Part shown: positions 10,659 through 62,868 of the stretch, one piece after another | How the letters are laid out: the number at the start of each line of letters is the position of its first letter | Numbering within the stretch: position 1 is the stretch's first letter | Notes under the pieces: generated by a model | Told to the model about the DNA's origin: nothing | Databases searched by the model: none | The model's input: only the letters and a program-made list of their open reading frames with translations | Position numbers and translations under genes: made by a program | Assembly: GCF_900107195.1 (NCBI RefSeq) | Contig: NZ_FNPB01000015.1 | Location: 1-62,868, forward strand | Length of the DNA stretch: 62,868 bases | Direction of reading: 5' to 3' | DNA from: Halobellus clavatus | Lineage (GTDB): Archaea; Halobacteriota; Halobacteria; Halobacteriales; Haloferacaceae

Positions 10659-11468
10659 TTAATCCCGGGAAACATCAAGGTCCCTCAGTAACATATTATC
10701 TTGTAAAACAGCGCTTCGTCCACCATCAACAAGTACGCGCGAACCTGTAACGAATGAGGATAAATCGCTCAATAAAAACACGACGATATTTGCCACGTCT
10801 GTAGGATCTCCTATTCTTCCTAACGGGTGAATTTTTTCGAGATGAATCTTATCACTTTCTTCAATTGATCTTCTGACTCTTTCAACCTCTATCCATCCGG
10901 GTGCGACTGTGTTGACTCGAATCCCATCAGCACCCCAAGCAACTGCCATCGATCTTGTCAGTCCATCAATGGCCGTCTTTACCACATTGTACGGGAATTT
11001 TTTGGGCTGTGTGAGCTGTCCGTGATTCGATCCGATATTAACGATTGCGGCATCGTCACTCTCTTTGAGATACGGATAGGCGTATTTCCCCATAAGCCAA
11101 TAAGCCCGGAGATCAGTTTCGACAATCGCTTCCCACGTATCGAGTGTTACTTCCTCTGGGGATGTATCAGTTTCAAACCCAGCATTGTTGACTACCGCAT
11201 CAATTCCTCCAAACTCCTCCACGGTTATTTCAACAAGAGTCCTCAAGTCACTCGGTTCTCGCACATCGGTTTGGACGAACACTGCACTCCCTCCAGCAGA
11301 TGTGATTTCGTTCACAACCTCTTGGCCATCACTGGCTGTACGGCCACTGACAACAACATTTGCGCCCATATCTGCTAGTCGGCGCGCAGTTGCAGCACCT
11401 ATTCCTCGAGTACTCCCCGTTATTACAGCCGTTAACGTTGATAAATCAACTATATTTCTTCCTGACAT
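10659..11468 (-). CDS. SDR-family oxidoreductase
   Basis: The 269-residue protein is a classical short-chain dehydrogenase. AVITGSTRGIGAATARRLA is the nucleotide-binding motif, VNNAG follows, and the catalytic region has NIGSNHG (Ser) with YNVVK (Tyr-x-x-x-Lys). The C-terminal VLVDGGRSAVLQ is also typical. After GSTRG the second strand ends VVSGRT, where Arg at this place favours NADP(H), an inference only. Among relatives are glucose/galactose dehydrogenases and 3-oxoacyl-ACP reductases. In this locus, 71 bp before the GT2-MDR gene on the same strand, oxidation or reduction of a sugar seems the best guess. Confidence 0.8.
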   Translation of the reverse strand: MSGRNIVDLSTLTAVITGSTRGIGAATARRLADMGANVVVSGRTASDGQEVVNEITSAGGSAVFVQTDVREPSDLRTLVEITVEEFGGIDAVVNNAGFETDTSPEEVTLDTWEAIVETDLRAYWLMGKYAYPYLKESDDAAIVNIGSNHGQLTQPKKFPYNVVKTAIDGLTRSMAVAWGADGIRVNTVAPGWIEVERVRRSIEESDKIHLEKIHPLGRIGDPTDVANIVVFLLSDLSSFVTGSRVLVDGGRSAVLQDNMLLRDLDVSRD

Positions 11469-11521
11469 AATTTAAATATTATTGATATTTGTTATCTCAT
11501 TTTGTAAAGTTACTATTTCGA

Positions 11522-13324
11522 TTATTCTACCGTTTGTGACTGGATCTCATACAGTTCTGCGTATTTTCCCCCTTCAGTTAGCAGTTCGTCATGGCCTCCT
11601 GTTTCGATGATCTGACCACTGTCGATCGTATAAATCCGATCCGTGTTTTTCACCGTTGATAACCGATGTGCGATAGTAATTATTCCGTAGTCGTGATCCA
11701 TAGCTTCTATTGAGGCTTGCACTTCTTTTTCTAAATTAGAGTCGAGATCGCTTGTCGCTTCGTCTAACACCAAGAAGTCTGCATCTGTCAGTAATGCCCG
11801 TGCGATGGCCACACGCTGCCGCTGACCACCGGAGAGTCGTATCCCGTCGTCCCCCAACTGAGAGTCGTACCCCTTCGGTAGATCATCAAGGAATTCGTCT
11901 ACTTTCGCGATTTCACAGACGCGTTCTACTTCATCGTGTGTTGCGTCCTGATTACCCACCGTCACGTTCCCTCTCAGAGTGTCGTTAAAAATAAACGGGT
12001 GCTGACGAACAACAGCGATTCGATCGCGCCACGCGCGTAAATCAAACTCATTAATGGGTGTGCCATCCGCCGTGATTACTCCACTATCCGGGATATAAAA
12101 GCGTGATAAAAGCGAAACGATCGTTGATTTTCCAGCACCCGATTGTCCGACAAACGCAACAAACTCTCCCCGAGCAATAGAGAAGGAAATCCCGTCAAGA
12201 ATCTGCTCGTCATTCGAGTAGGAAAAATGAACATCATCAAATTCTACCCGTGAGACACGCCCCGGTGTCAAATCACCATCGGTTTCACGGCGACTGCCGA
12301 GTTCTTCGACGAACTTCTGTGTCCGGACTAGATGCGAGAGATTCCCTTCGAGGCTGTAGATCTTATTGTTCAGTCGACTTACCAAGGGGGCGAGCCGGAA
12401 CATAGCGAGGAAAAATATTCCCAGCGCACCGAGTGCCAATCCACTATACGCGAACCCGATATAGATAAGCGTGAAAAGTGAGAGTGCTGCCGCGAGGTCA
12501 TAGAAATTCTGAATAGCTGCCTTGTTACGTTCGAGATTGATCGAAGCTGATCGGTACTTTCCTATCCATTCGCTAAATATGTCGAACACCTCATCAGAGA
12601 GTCCAAATAGTTTCACATCACGGATTCCTTGCGTTCCAGCCTGCACGGCCTCCTGTACGCGTTCGTTAGCGGTAGCCACTCGGGATCCCACGGTATATGC
12701 CGGTTCGATAATTTCTCGGAGGAGGTACGTTATTCCACCGAGTAGGACCAGCGCAAACAGCGCCATCCGGGGCGCAATATAAAACATTACTGAGAGGTAG
12801 ACGACCGCGAGAAATGCTGTCTCAAGGGACTGGACCCCTGCTTCAATCACCCGGCCGGAGTATCGCGTCTCCGTGATAATCGCATTCAGGATATCATCGG
12901 AACCTTCTTCATCAAAGTAACTCACGCGCGCTTCAAGCGCCGAGTCAAATGCCTTGGTCCGGAGTGCTTCTTCGTACGTCTTCTGAACGATTGATCGTAA
13001 CCAAGCCACGAAGAATGATGATACGAATCGAACAGTCATCGCTAACCCTACGCCGAGAATCAGATATTCTAATTGGAACGGTACACCTACGAGCGCGTAC
13101 GCCCGAAGAAAGATGCCAAGAAGACCGTTAGCTTCGGTAATCGGTTCTTGTGCTTGGGCAACCTCAAGGATCGGCCAAATGAAACTTAGCCCGATACCCT
13201 CAAGAAAAGCGGTAGCCCCTCCTAGGAGTACGATCACCAGCGTGAGTTTTGGACGGAACTGCGCGACTTGACGCACCGCCGTCAGCTTCATCTGTAGCGT
13301 GATATCCTCGCCGGCATCCGTCAT
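11522..13324 (-). CDS. ABC exporter, fused permease and ATPase (MsbA/PglK-like)
   Basis: The 600-residue half-transporter has a membrane domain with about six helices in residues 25-330 and a nucleotide-binding domain from about 345. The NBD has Walker A GQSGAGKST, the Q-loop VRQHPFIFN, signature LSGGQRQRVA, Walker B FLVLDEATSDLDS and the switch His in ITIAHRLST. Homologues flip lipid-linked saccharides (PglK) or lipids (MsbA). Sitting between sugar-modifying genes and aglB, it is a good candidate for moving the lipid-linked glycan across the membrane. Multidrug or peptide export cannot be excluded. It ends the run of intact island genes before the IS5-type relic. Confidence 0.85.
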   Translation of the reverse strand: MTDAGEDITLQMKLTAVRQVAQFRPKLTLVIVLLGGATAFLEGIGLSFIWPILEVAQAQEPITEANGLLGIFLRAYALVGVPFQLEYLILGVGLAMTVRFVSSFFVAWLRSIVQKTYEEALRTKAFDSALEARVSYFDEEGSDDILNAIITETRYSGRVIEAGVQSLETAFLAVVYLSVMFYIAPRMALFALVLLGGITYLLREIIEPAYTVGSRVATANERVQEAVQAGTQGIRDVKLFGLSDEVFDIFSEWIGKYRSASINLERNKAAIQNFYDLAAALSLFTLIYIGFAYSGLALGALGIFFLAMFRLAPLVSRLNNKIYSLEGNLSHLVRTQKFVEELGSRRETDGDLTPGRVSRVEFDDVHFSYSNDEQILDGISFSIARGEFVAFVGQSGAGKSTIVSLLSRFYIPDSGVITADGTPINEFDLRAWRDRIAVVRQHPFIFNDTLRGNVTVGNQDATHDEVERVCEIAKVDEFLDDLPKGYDSQLGDDGIRLSGGQRQRVAIARALLTDADFLVLDEATSDLDSNLEKEVQASIEAMDHDYGIITIAHRLSTVKNTDRIYTIDSGQIIETGGHDELLTEGGKYAELYEIQSQTVE

Positions 13325-13448
13325 CTTAGATATGTGGCGTTTTTCCTGCTCGGTTCATAAGGGTGCTGCTTGCCAGATATCTTCAAAATCTTCTATGATG
13401 AATAGATTCTGAGTCACGGTTACAAGGCCTCACAGAGTGATTTTAACT

Positions 13449-13800
13449 TCAGGATGCTAAAATCAGGATGATTTCACGGAACTGTCGATACCAGCCGAGA
13501 GCTTGTACGGCGTTGCCGAGCGAGCGCTTCGTTGTCGAGAACGAAGTCTCGGCCATCCAGCGCTGAGAGTAGTCTTTTATCCGGATAAGTGCATTGTGCA
13601 CTAGCGTCAACAGTCTTGACCCACGCTGTAAGATGAGTGGCTCGACGCCCAGCACGTAGAACTGTCGTGACCCAGTTGTGGAATGCTTAGTCGGCAGCTA
13701 CGGACAGCAGGTTGTCCGCATTCCGGCGGACGACCTGTGGGCCAGTCTTCGTATCGTATCTCCACCGGTCCGAGATGTGTAGGCCAAGGACGATAAGAGA
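13449..13800 (-). pseudogene. Remnant of an IS5-type transposase
   Basis: Minus-strand frames give conserved haloarchaeal IS5-family segments: HISDRWRYDTKTGPQVVRRN and ADNLLSVAAD (followed by a stop) in one frame, then GVEPLILQRGSRLLTLVHNA, YSQRWMAETSFSTTKRSLG and WYRQFREIILILA to the stop at 13449-13451. The N-terminal half with the first catalytic Asp is missing, and the pieces lie in different frames. It marks the right edge of the AT-rich island, next to aglB. Confidence 0.65.
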
Positions 13801-59232: not shown

Positions 59233-59408
59233 CCTGTTTTTCTATTCACCGTTATACTTCATAAGTCTAGGCTATTAGGTGTAATAGGTGTATGTTTCTA
59301 CTATACTTGTCGAGGGGGGACGTCGGGGCCGGGGTACGCTGGCCGCTGTCACGAGAGCGCCGAACTGTGCATCGTCGGCGTTATGTCGATCCCCACGGTA
59401 GCGGTGCT

Positions 59409-59900
59409 ATGGACCTGTTGGGACGGCTGTTCGGCGACGGCGACGAACCGCGGGTCGCGCTGTTCGTCGACGGGCCGAACGTCCTCCGCGACGAGTTCGA
59501 CGTCGACCTCGACGACGTCCGGGAGGCGGCTGCCGAGGCGGGACAGTTGACCGCGACGCGACTGTATCTCGACGAACACGCGACGCCGGGGTTGATTCAG
59601 GCGGCCGAAGCCCGCGGCTTCGAGGTGATCGTCACCAGCGGTGACGTGGACGTCCGACTCGCGGTCGACGTCACGCAGTTCGCCGTCGAGGACCGCGCCG
59701 ACGTGATCGCGATCGCCTCCCGCGATACGGACTTCAAGCCCGCCATCGAGGCCGCCAACGCGCGCGGCTGTCGCACGTTCGCGATCGCTCCCGGCGAGTT
59801 CGGTCGCTCGGATGCCCTTCGCAACGCGGCCACCGAGCGCGTCACGCTCGAAGAGGAGAGCGACGACGACAGCCCGACGCTCGTCGGCTACGACGGGTGA
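59409..59900 (+). CDS. NYN-domain (PIN-like/LabA-type) protein
   Basis: Start at ATG 59409 (MDLLGRLFGDGDEPRVALFV), since the frame upstream lacks homology. The 163-residue protein has the NYN active-site acids VALFVDGPNVLRDEF, TSGDVDVRLAVDVTQFAVE and VIAIASRDTDFKPAIEAANA. Members (TIGR00288/LabA-like) are predicted ribonucleases or RNA-processing factors. The C-terminus is acidic. Confidence 0.85.
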   Translation: MDLLGRLFGDGDEPRVALFVDGPNVLRDEFDVDLDDVREAAAEAGQLTATRLYLDEHATPGLIQAAEARGFEVIVTSGDVDVRLAVDVTQFAVEDRADVIAIASRDTDFKPAIEAANARGCRTFAIAPGEFGRSDALRNAATERVTLEEESDDDSPTLVGYDG

Positions 59901-59958
59901 GGACCGGCGCGCACTCCCATCGTATCCGGCTCCGCCAACCGGTCGCTGGTGACGACAG

Positions 59959-61206
59959 TTAGGATGTCCCGTGGTCGAGATAGCCGAGCGATTCCAGGAT
60001 TTCGCAGACTCGGCAGCTCCCCTCCACCGGGGGCCCCGTCGACGTGAGGCTCTGCGCCTGTTTCGTCTTTCCGCAGTTCGCACACGACGCGAAGGCTTCG
60101 CCGTCGGGTTCGTCGTGCGTGCGCCTCGCGTTACCCTCGAGTAGCCAGTACTCGATCCCGGGCCAATACGTCAACAACTGGTCCGCCAGATACCGATAGA
60201 GAGTCTGCTCGTTCGACTGCATCGTCCACTCCGCGGAGAGCGCGTGTTCGACGAACTCGCCTCGGGTACCGTAGTGATATAGCGCCAGTTCCCGCTTCGA
60301 GAGGAGCGCGGCGGGATAGACGTACGTGAGTTCGCCGAACGTGCGCGTCGGAAACGCGCCGACATCGAACCCCGACGCGAACGACTTCAGCAGTCCGGCG
60401 ACGAGATCCGACGCGTGCGCGCCGAGGGCGATCGTCTCGAACCCCTCACGCGTCGCGACGTGTTCCAGTAACCGGGTGATGAGATGATCTCCGATCGCGG
60501 CCGCATACTCGTCGTACTCCGTCTGCGAGAGCCTGTCGAACACGTCGGCGAACGACCCATCGATCCCGTACACTCGCTCGGCGACCGTCCCACTGACCGT
60601 GTGTAACTCGACTCCCAACTCCGCGGCGAGTTCCGTCGCGTACTCAACTGCGACAGAGGGGTCGGCGTCGCGCCGCCACGGGTCGTCGACCGTCGCTGCG
60701 GCGACCGTCAGGTCGGAACGTTCGTCGGCGATCCGCTGGAGCGCAATGAGCAGAGCGGTGCTGTCGACTTCACCGGAGAGCCCCACGAGCACTGAGTCGG
60801 CGGCGAGGAGATCGTACTCCTCGAGCGTCTCTCGGACAACCGATTCGACGTGGGTCACCAGTTCTTCGAGCGTGAGGTGGGTCCGCTCGATTCCGACTGT
60901 CCCGTCCGACGCGAACGAGACGTGTCGGTGTGTGTGGACGGCGGCCGAACCGGGGTCGTCCGGTCGGTCGTACAGGTCCCGTACGCTGTCGAGGTCGTAC
61001 CCTTCGACGAGTCGAACCCGGTACTCCGTTCCGGGGTCGAGGCTGACGGCGTCGGTGACCGGCTCCCCGTCGACGGTCGCGATGATCGACGCCGCGGGAA
61101 TCCGGTTCCGCGAGAGAACGTCACTGAGGGACTCGTCCGTCGTCGCGTCGAGCGGCTCCGGTTCGTCGTCGTGGCCGACGAGGAGGACGCGCGGTTTCGT
61201 GTCCAT
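59959..61206 (-). CDS. Ubiquitin-like (ThiS/MoaD-type) domain fused to PP-loop ATPase, degenerate tRNA-thiolase-like
   Basis: The 415-residue protein has an N-terminal beta-grasp part (residues 1-70: RVLLVGHDDEPEPLDATTDE, LSDVLSRNRIPAASIIATVD, GTEYRVRLVEGYDL), then a TtuA/NcsA-like adenine-nucleotide alpha hydrolase domain with PP-loop VGLSGEVDSTALLIALQRI. The second Gly of SGGxDS is Glu. The later signature GHNxDDxA is AHASDLVAGL, and the CxxC cysteines that bind the Fe-S cluster in TtuA are not seen before it. The C-terminus keeps a zinc ribbon: CANCGKTK and CRVCEILESLG. Expected ancestry: tRNA thiolation with ubiquitin-like sulfur carrier; present activity uncertain. Confidence 0.8.
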   Translation of the reverse strand: MDTKPRVLLVGHDDEPEPLDATTDESLSDVLSRNRIPAASIIATVDGEPVTDAVSLDPGTEYRVRLVEGYDLDSVRDLYDRPDDPGSAAVHTHRHVSFASDGTVGIERTHLTLEELVTHVESVVRETLEEYDLLAADSVLVGLSGEVDSTALLIALQRIADERSDLTVAAATVDDPWRRDADPSVAVEYATELAAELGVELHTVSGTVAERVYGIDGSFADVFDRLSQTEYDEYAAAIGDHLITRLLEHVATREGFETIALGAHASDLVAGLLKSFASGFDVGAFPTRTFGELTYVYPAALLSKRELALYHYGTRGEFVEHALSAEWTMQSNEQTLYRYLADQLLTYWPGIEYWLLEGNARRTHDEPDGEAFASCANCGKTKQAQSLTSTGPPVEGSCRVCEILESLGYLDHGTS

Positions 61207-61292
61207 CTATCTCTGTGGCTGACGACCTCAGCGCTCGACTGACGGTCTGAGAAGATTCGCTGCGGCAGCACTCCCGATCCGGCCGGCGCCGC

Positions 61293-61391
61293 TCACGTCG
61301 GGGATTCAGGGCTGCTGTCGCGGATTTCGTGCCGTTCTTGCTGTTCATCGATCCGCTCGCGGATCGTCGCGATCGTGTCTTTGGCACTCAT
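61293..61391 (-). CDS. Very small ORF (32 aa), possible small protein
   Basis: ATG (61389-61391) to TGA (61293-61295) encodes MSAKDTIATIRERIDEQQER plus HEIRDSSPESPT. It has an amphipathic helix and an acidic end. A good TATA-like AATACTTTTATT lies on the minus strand at about 61420-61431, 29-40 bp before the ATG, so a short-leader transcript starting near the ATG is plausible. No family recognised. Confidence 0.45.
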   Translation of the reverse strand: MSAKDTIATIRERIDEQQERHEIRDSSPESPT

Positions 61392-61440
61392 TGGCTCGTG
61401 TAAGATTACTGTCCGTTGGAATAAAAGTATTTGGCCCGGA

Positions 61441-62463
61441 TTAGAACTGCGCCCTGGCGAGATAGAGCGCGCTGGTGCGTTCGTCGGCGAACGTCACGTC
61501 GAGCGTCCCGTCGCGCTTCTGTGCGACGTTCGGATCGAGTTCCTCGATGTCCTCGGGCGTGAGTTGCACGCGGCCGGCGTCGCGGTAGTGGTCTGTGGTC
61601 TCTTTGCTGACGCGCCGCATCTCGACGTCGGTGGCTCCGTCGAGCGCCATCTCGATGTGGAGCCGATCGATCCCGCGCCTGAACCGGTGACACGGGAAGT
61701 GGAAGTAGTGCTCGTCGAGATCGGTCGGTTCGTCGAACGTCGCCGACCACCTGATTCCGAACTCCTCGGAGGGGTCCAGCGGCTCCGGGAAGTATAATTT
61801 GACCAGGGTGTCGTACTCGGCGACCCGTTCTGCCTCCCAGTTCTCGCTCTCTTGCCACTCGTTGCCGTCTCTGTGCTCCAGTTGAAAGTCCAGTTCTGCC
61901 GCGTCGATCTGCGCCTCGCTCGTGATCAGAACCGAGAGGTACTCAGTGGCGGATTCAGAGGCGTTCAGTCCCTCGAAGGTCTCCGTCCAGTAGATGTCGC
62001 CATCCCGGAGTTCGACCTCCGCCACGAGCTCTTGGAGGTAGTGGTCGGAGTCGTACGCCTTCGGAATGTCCTGGAGAAAAATCGAGAACGCGAGCGGGTA
62101 GAACGTGTCTTCCGCGCCGGTCTGTACGCTCTCTAAGTTCTGTCGCATCTCCTCTTCGAGTTGCTGTGTCTGCTGTTGATGCTCCGTTCGGATCCGCTGG
62201 ATCCGCCTGTAGAGGTCGATCGAGGACTTCGTCACGAGTCCCGTGACGAACAGCAGCAGCAAGGCGACACTGGCGAGTACTTGCTCCAACGTGGTCAGTT
62301 GGAACAACCGAAGCCACTGAACCATAATCGGGACTACCGAGAGGAGCGTGGCCGCGCCGAGGAGAATCCCGATCGCTGTTCGGGTGTTCGACCGCAGGAT
62401 CTCGATGTGGTCGGAGCGCGGCTCCGTCAGGACGGGCTCGTCACCCCGCTCGGTGTCCCGCAT
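61441..62463 (-). CDS. Hypothetical membrane protein with coiled coil and C-terminal soluble domain
   Basis: Function unknown. The 340-residue protein has a 25-residue cytoplasmic N-terminus, two helices (AIGILLGAATLLSVVPIMVQ, VLASVALLLLFVTGLVT), a coiled coil (RIQRIRTEHQQQTQQLEEEM, about residues 88-115) and a beta-rich acidic domain of about 215 residues with FYPLAFSIFLQDIPKAYDSD, EFGIRWSATFDEPTDL and HYFHFPCHRFRRGIDRLHIE. No catalytic motif is recognised. The TM/coiled-coil/beta layout is reminiscent of sensors or scaffolds. Confidence 0.65.
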   Translation of the reverse strand: MRDTERGDEPVLTEPRSDHIEILRSNTRTAIGILLGAATLLSVVPIMVQWLRLFQLTTLEQVLASVALLLLFVTGLVTKSSIDLYRRIQRIRTEHQQQTQQLEEEMRQNLESVQTGAEDTFYPLAFSIFLQDIPKAYDSDHYLQELVAEVELRDGDIYWTETFEGLNASESATEYLSVLITSEAQIDAAELDFQLEHRDGNEWQESENWEAERVAEYDTLVKLYFPEPLDPSEEFGIRWSATFDEPTDLDEHYFHFPCHRFRRGIDRLHIEMALDGATDVEMRRVSKETTDHYRDAGRVQLTPEDIEELDPNVAQKRDGTLDVTFADERTSALYLARAQF

Positions 62464-62536
62464 AAATCGGCTGGTTGAGTATGATTGGAAGGATTACTTA
62501 ACGCTATGGGGCGGACGGTGGATCGCGTACAGTCCC

Positions 62537-62648
62537 GACGCGGACCGTTCGATGCAGGCCGCCTGACGCGGACTGTTCGACGCAGGCCGCCTGACGCGGA
62601 CTGTTCGACGCAGGCCGCCTGACGCGGACTGTTCGACGCAGGCCGCCT
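62537..62648. repeat. Four head-to-tail copies of a 28-bp repeat
   Basis: Units start at 62537, 62565, 62593 and 62621, each beginning GACGCGGAC and ending CAGGCCGCCT. Copies 2-4 are identical; copy 1 differs by two bases. A degenerate fifth (GACGCAGGTCGG) begins at 62649. There are no spacers. The array lies between two genes, 87-198 bp before the amidase start. Confidence 0.9.
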
Positions 62649-62734
62649 GACGCAGGTCGGACCCACCGTCGCAGTCCGACTATGCGGAGAGTATATACAG
62701 AGTAAGCGAGAGGGTTGGATACGAACGTCTTCCT

Positions 62735-62868
62735 ATGCAGCGTGTCGATCCTTTCGTCCCGACGACGACGCTCGCCGAGCGCATCCGCGACGGGGACGTC
62801 GCGCCGAGCGATGCTGTCGCGACATACCTCGACCGCATCTCTCGGGACAATGACGACCTCAACGCCTT
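62735..62868 (+). CDS. Amidase-family protein, N-terminus (partial)
   Basis: The gene begins at ATG 62735 and runs off the window. The 44 visible residues include TTTLAERIRDGDVAPSDAVA, TYLDRISRDNDDLNA, the usual first helix of the amidase signature family (GatA/indoleacetamide/urethanase type, where xxAxxIRxGxxSxxExVxAYLxRIxxxNxxLNA is common). The Ser-Ser-Lys catalytic triad lies beyond the edge. TATATAC at 62692-62698 is a TATA-like element 37-43 bp before the start. Confidence 0.7.
   Translation, partial: MQRVDPFVPTTTLAERIRDGDVAPSDAVATYLDRISRDNDDLNA

Follow-up and report, generated by a model that had tools for sequence, protein, structure and literature searches.

Enzymes of the TtuA/NcsA type depend on a separate ubiquitin-like (Ubl) protein, which docks at their active site and from which they receive sulfur. 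TilS and NAD synthetase, also of the PP-loop type, add a nitrogen nucleophile at the expense of ATP and do so without an Fe-S cluster. The best described systems close to the gene reported here are NcsA (6SCY), which thiolates archaeal tRNA at U34 with the help of a [4Fe-4S] cluster, and TtuA (PH0300; T. thermophilus). Both have an N-terminal zinc finger, the motifs SGGKDS and GHNxDD, and three Fe-S cysteines, which in NcsA of M. maripaludis are Cys142, Cys145 and Cys233 (PMC10067955). The sulfur carriers TtuB, Urm1, ThiS and SAMP2 exist as free proteins, and their C-terminal Gly-Gly is converted to a thiocarboxylate, a chemistry reviewed for TtuB and Urm1 (PMC6225789). In the accessible part of Makarova and Koonin 2010 (PMC2948915), Ubl genes beside PP-loop ATPase genes and Ubl fusions with Cgi121, MoaE and E1 are reported, and a Ubl-PP-loop fusion is not named there. 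PP-loop enzymes with a nitrogen nucleophile or with small-molecule substrates include N-acetyl sugar amidotransferase (PMC10607449). In 6-thioguanine biosynthesis, the PP-loop ATPase YcfA has shifted from tRNA modification to small-molecule biosynthesis (PMC6225789). YcfA works with the PLP protein YcfC, and is likened to the proteins studied here by description, not by sequence. We know of no Ubl domain in YcfA.

The window, i.e. the whole stretch of 62,868 nucleotides from Halobellus clavatus that was analysed, contains a complete PP-loop gene at 59959..61206. The open reading frame proposed there in the initial annotation was recovered and lies on the minus strand, which had not been stated, with an ATG start codon at 61206. 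It encodes a protein of 415 aa and has full-length homologues; its GC3 of 0.82 and a codon usage resembling that of the adjoining genes indicate a sound coding signal. From the N- to the C-terminus the protein consists of a Ubl-like domain, a PP-loop domain and a Cys4 ribbon, and the coordinates given for them below all refer to the minus strand. No Pfam or NCBIfam model scored above its cut-off for this protein. The best Pfam match was ATP_bind_3 (E 1.1e-4, below cut-off), and the NCBIfam scores were 12.6 bits for NcsA (cut-off 500), 14.8 for TtuA (cut-off 450), 22.4 of 93.6 bits for TilS_N and 12.4 of 63.65 for nadE, the last two likewise under the curated cut-off. An identity as a defence system was discarded, there being no meaningful PADLOC match.

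The PP-loop domain (residues 110-310; 60277..60879), delimited by Pfam, profile and alignment, aligns over its length with NcsA and TtuA. As had been read from the sequence at the outset, SGEVDS stands in place of SGGxDS (residues 144-149; 60760..60777), and the alignment places an altered motif, GAHASD (residues 262-267; 60406..60423), at the position of GHNxDD in NcsA. The second Asp of that motif (D267) and the C-terminal ribbon (C375xxC378...C398xxC401; 60004..60084), located by cysteine positions and alignment, are retained as in NcsA and TtuA. C375, C378, C398 and C401 are the only cysteines of the protein. The N-terminal zinc finger of NcsA is thus absent, the first cysteine being residue 375, and an alignment with the NcsA of the same genome and other archaeal NcsA/TtuA-type proteins bore out the suspected absence of the CxxC ligands and revealed that of the third Fe-S cysteine as well. 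Since the cysteines are confined to the ribbon, the protein can neither bind a cluster as TtuA does nor form a persulfide for catalysis.

Five homologues were found, one in another haloarchaeon (genome G096) and four on plasmids of Geobacillus, Xenorhabdus, Pantoea and Paenarthrobacter. The G096 protein, the only homologue from another genome among 170 genomes of the family Haloferacaceae, is 30% identical and has SGGKDS and the ribbon. In the plasmid records, the protein from Geobacillus stearothermophilus pGS18 matches that of G096 with 28.5% identity over 98% of the query, and the Pantoea, Paenarthrobacter and Xenorhabdus proteins are more distant. The gene was present in none of the other genomes of the genus that were checked, and among the loci read from samples of 293 order, 391 class and 393 phylum genomes there were only canonical NcsA/TtuA-type proteins. 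The H. clavatus genome has no second copy, as a further match on contig C16 (E 0.013) was rejected as unrelated sequence; it does encode a canonical NcsA on contig C19, four ThiS/MoaD/SAMP-type matches above the family cut-off and one weaker match. Two scans of GTDB genome contigs and five of viral contigs yielded no relative, using short peptide patterns that are insensitive at 30% identity and weak at such divergence, and phage records contained only weak TtcA-like or unannotated PP-loop matches. The family is rare in the searchable data, bacterial chromosomes lying outside the sensitive profile search, and it is apparently mobile.

The window protein shares full-length colinear homology with these proteins, and in a tree with 32 archaeal NcsA/TtuA-type proteins and one TtcA the six form a single clade (branch support 100/99), with long branches that make the internal placements, and partly the grouping itself, less sure than the support values. 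The nearest solved structures to a profile of all six are NcsA 6SCY (E 3.6e-17, with the alignment running through the C-terminal ribbon) and TtuA PH0300, in agreement with the kinship originally suggested, followed by TilS and NAD synthetases. A comparison with the NcsA and TtuA models, proposed as a check, thus pointed to these enzymes at the level of the profile, but with the single sequence the scores stayed far below the NCBIfam cut-offs. Like TilS, NAD synthetase and N-acetyl sugar amidotransferase, the proteins are of the PP-loop type and show profile similarity to them; these enzymes, however, carry other accessory domains, and the similarity is far under the family cut-offs. In each of the six, an N-terminal extension replaces the zinc finger of NcsA, and the alignment shows neither the CxxC nor the third [4Fe-4S] cysteine. 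The ribbon is present, as in NcsA, in the window, G096 and Geobacillus proteins and absent from those of Xenorhabdus, Pantoea and Paenarthrobacter. SGGxDS and NxED, the latter as (L/Y)NxED, are kept in five members, the window copy being the sole exception.

The missing Fe-S site is thus a trait of the family and not a degeneration of the window copy, because all six members are without the three cysteines. The idea of a tRNA thiolase that lost its Fe-S cysteines in this lineage fails on the same count, as five of these members have an intact SGGxDS. The alternative raised with it, a different ATP-dependent chemistry, fits a family in which SGGxDS is kept in five members and the Fe-S ligands in none. 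The term degenerate, applied initially to the ATPase, suits the catalytic motifs of the window copy but not the family, whose five other members have intact motifs. Likewise, a test for conservation of SGEVDS showed the variant to be confined to the window copy. The best reading is that the Fe-S-free Ubl-PP-loop proteins constitute an undescribed family. No description of the fusion was found in the literature searched, most subscription journals being outside its scope, and we claim no priority.

The N-terminal domain (residues 1-70; 60997..61206) had been proposed to be beta-grasp. Searches with the window sequence alone (Pfam and phmmer single-sequence searches) gave no beta-grasp match. 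However, a profile of three members (window, G096, Geobacillus) searched against the whole PDB found 1RYJ (E 0.0028), SAMP2 (0.27) and PF1061 (0.47); 1RYJ, which is archaeal, and PF1061 we take to be ThiS/MoaD-like proteins. A reversed-profile control matched no beta-grasp protein, and the N-terminus of the six-protein profile also matches 1RYJ (E 0.021). A match of the three-member profile to polyubiquitin was discounted because its score is a sum over repeats that contribute about 3 bits apiece. The N-termini of the Pantoea subgroup gave no beta-grasp match, and an hhalign comparison of the N-terminal alignment with a haloarchaeal ThiS/SAMP set, which took in four wrong-strand rows (L053, L060, L062 and L069 are named), was colinear but weak (probability 2.7%) and was given no weight. 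Structure prediction was too poor to use (pLDDT 41.5 for the whole protein, 56 for residues 1-84) and Foldseek was uninformative; the low-confidence model of residues 1-84 has an order of strands and helices compatible with a beta-grasp fold but is unusable for a fold search. The proposal is thus supported by the profiles, not proven, and residues 1-70 probably form a ThiS/MoaD-like beta-grasp domain. While the nearest fold is that of the TtuB/Urm1/ThiS/SAMP2 carriers, the domain is internal and runs on as LVEGYDLD into the linker, with no Gly-Gly, so that TtuB/Urm1 thiocarboxylate chemistry is excluded in cis, as had been argued from the outset.

The window copy differs from its relatives in 5 of the 18 columns that are invariant in the other five members (R68E, G146E, N264H, E266S and L269V), and three of these changes (G146E, N264H and E266S) fall within the two catalytic motifs. 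Leaving out each other member in the same way gave three or four differing columns, none of them in the catalytic motifs. E68, an Arg in the five relatives by column comparison, is situated where the N-terminal domain ends (61003..61005); its loss together with the motif residues weakly suggests that the family Arg at position 68 may work near the active site. S144, G145, D148, S149, D267, the fold residues and the ribbon are kept. With Gly146, Asn264, Glu266 and Arg68 lost, the ATP-pyrophosphatase activity of the window copy is probably reduced or absent. Impaired catalysis, which presumes that the Gly-to-Glu exchange in the PP-loop is harmful, is the most likely condition of this copy, at about even chances. 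The intact reading frame and the host-like codon usage argue against simple decay. No close orthologue of the window copy was found in the data searched.

We put at roughly fifty-fifty the view that the window gene is a divergent, impaired or repurposed member of the Fe-S-free Ubl-PP-loop family and that the family works as follows. The PP-loop would bind ATP and adenylate a small molecule or nucleotide, possibly RNA, at one of its oxygens. AMP would then be displaced by a nucleophile that is not borne by an Fe-S cluster, i.e. an amine, ammonia, or sulfide from a partner. The Ubl part would be a fixed module in cis and may, like TtuB on TtuA, dock at the active site. The window copy would survive as a repurposed or decaying cargo gene. 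The family perhaps derives from small-molecule biosynthesis. A family with a Ubl-like domain in cis and without an Fe-S site would offer a natural test of what the Ubl contributes besides sulfur, and of the route by which PP-loop enzymes of sulfur transfer came to other chemistry; the window copy by itself is of modest interest.

Rather unlikely, in our estimation, is an active enzyme with a reshaped active site, in which SGEVDS would still bind the nucleotide and a changed reaction would be catalysed. The retention of S144, G145, D148, S149 and D267 would suit such an enzyme, as would a codon usage typical of an established gene, but it would have to operate with an acidic residue in place of the second glycine in its pyrophosphate loop and without N264 and E266, unlike all five relatives. 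Unlikely, too, is a selected non-catalytic partner, which would bind NcsA, SAMP-type proteins or tRNA and modulate thiolation or SAMPylation. The model for it is Ncs2/Ctu2 (PMC6225789), a homologue of NcsA that does more than catalyse, which, however, is eukaryotic, is the partner of an Fe-S enzyme (Ncs6/Ctu1) and has no Ubl domain. An intact reading frame with host-like codon usage, a ribbon and fold residues kept while the catalytic motifs are altered, and the presence of a canonical NcsA and ThiS/SAMP-type proteins in the genome would all agree with such a partner. However, the gene is missing from all other checked genomes of the genus although NcsA is general, there is no genomic link to NcsA, and the nearest relatives look catalytic.

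The neighbourhoods of the homologues bear on the preferred reading. The Geobacillus gene adjoins a nucleoside-phosphorylase-like gene, an MFS transporter and a Clp_N-AAA protein, with a nucleotidyltransferase upstream, and the Xenorhabdus gene adjoins an MFS transporter and an AAA ATPase. On the Pantoea agglomerans plasmid, a run of genes (L106 10105-26479) comprises a nucleotidyltransferase, an aminotransferase, a flavin-dependent oxidoreductase of the LLM type, SurE, an amidase, a PEP-utilizers_C protein and MFS transporters, together with a weak match to thymidylate kinase. Exporters are thus found beside three plasmid homologues (Geobacillus, Xenorhabdus and Pantoea) and nucleotide-metabolism genes beside two (Geobacillus and Pantoea), and these three loci look like small-molecule biosynthesis and export, judging by their gene content. 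Some plasmid members, which seem to sit in uncharacterised small-molecule gene clusters, are directly testable. A phosphonate cluster, to which a "PEP-binding" annotation in Pantoea had pointed, was rejected: the annotation reflects a PEP-utilizers_C domain, and a PEP mutase was not seen. The Paenarthrobacter neighbourhood has no exporter or nucleotide-metabolism genes of this kind, and neither there nor in G096 was a clear biosynthetic cluster found. The Paenarthrobacter member adjoins a gene (plasmid L107 3985-9873) for a 1962-aa protein with HrpA-type helicase and ribosomal-S1-type matches.

The G096 gene sits between two full-length leuS genes (L012 6474-9050, plus strand, and 10956-13625, minus strand) that share 51% identity, and a transposase gene is close by. 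Divergent forms of LeuRS have reportedly been noted in Halobacteriales in one paper. A leucyl-tRNA synthetase that confers self-immunity is known from agrocin-type systems. It is conceivable, though quite improbable, that the products of the family are nucleotide-type inhibitors made by adenylation without Fe-S, the Ubl in cis being what is left structurally of a step in which a sulfur carrier docked. Under this reading, the second leuS, directly upstream of the G096 member, would confer self-immunity as in agrocin-type systems, and the window copy would be what remains of such a pathway in an archaeon, decayed or put to another use. Least probable is the simplest reading of the initial annotation, in which the protein would be a lineage-specific paralogue of NcsA, the archaeal tRNA thiolase, that has degenerated. 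It could appeal to NcsA and TtuA as the nearest solved structures and to the common C-terminal ribbon, but is disfavoured by a clade that joins the protein to bacterial plasmid proteins and sets it apart from the sampled NcsA/TtuA-type proteins, by the score with the NcsA model and by the clade-wide absence of the Fe-S site.

In several relatives of the genus, a TatD-like hydrolase gene closely follows the NYN gene, which in the window occupies 59292-59900. In H. clavatus the TatD-like gene is on contig C27, 1,914 bases from the contig end. The ends of contigs C26 and C27 share 511 identical bases in opposite orientation, and these contain a 28-bp tandem array of 4.2 copies with 97% match (62537-62653 in the window; L105 4455-4571). 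The two contigs evidently join there, which gives the order NYN, PP-loop gene (minus), membrane-protein gene (minus), 28-bp array, amidase, TatD-like gene. The genes between NYN and TatD are an insertion of ~4.4 kb separating genes that are neighbours in relatives, and the part of it that lies in the window is 59901..62868. The membrane-protein gene (61441-62463, minus strand), upstream of the PP-loop gene and on the same strand, encodes a predicted protein of 340 aa of no recognised family. Neither of these two genes is at the same place in eight relatives.

The amidase gene lies in the contig C27 part of the insertion (L105 2946-4373, minus strand), and the nearest relatives of its product in plasmid records are haloarchaeal, with up to about 54% identity. 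That an amidase also occurs in the Pantoea run was dismissed as a meaningful link and is probably coincidence, the two being 32% identical and the family very common. Elsewhere in the window, which has 61% GC, a gene at 11522-13324 (minus strand) with a GC of 0.50 and a GC3 of 0.51 is possibly a recent acquisition.
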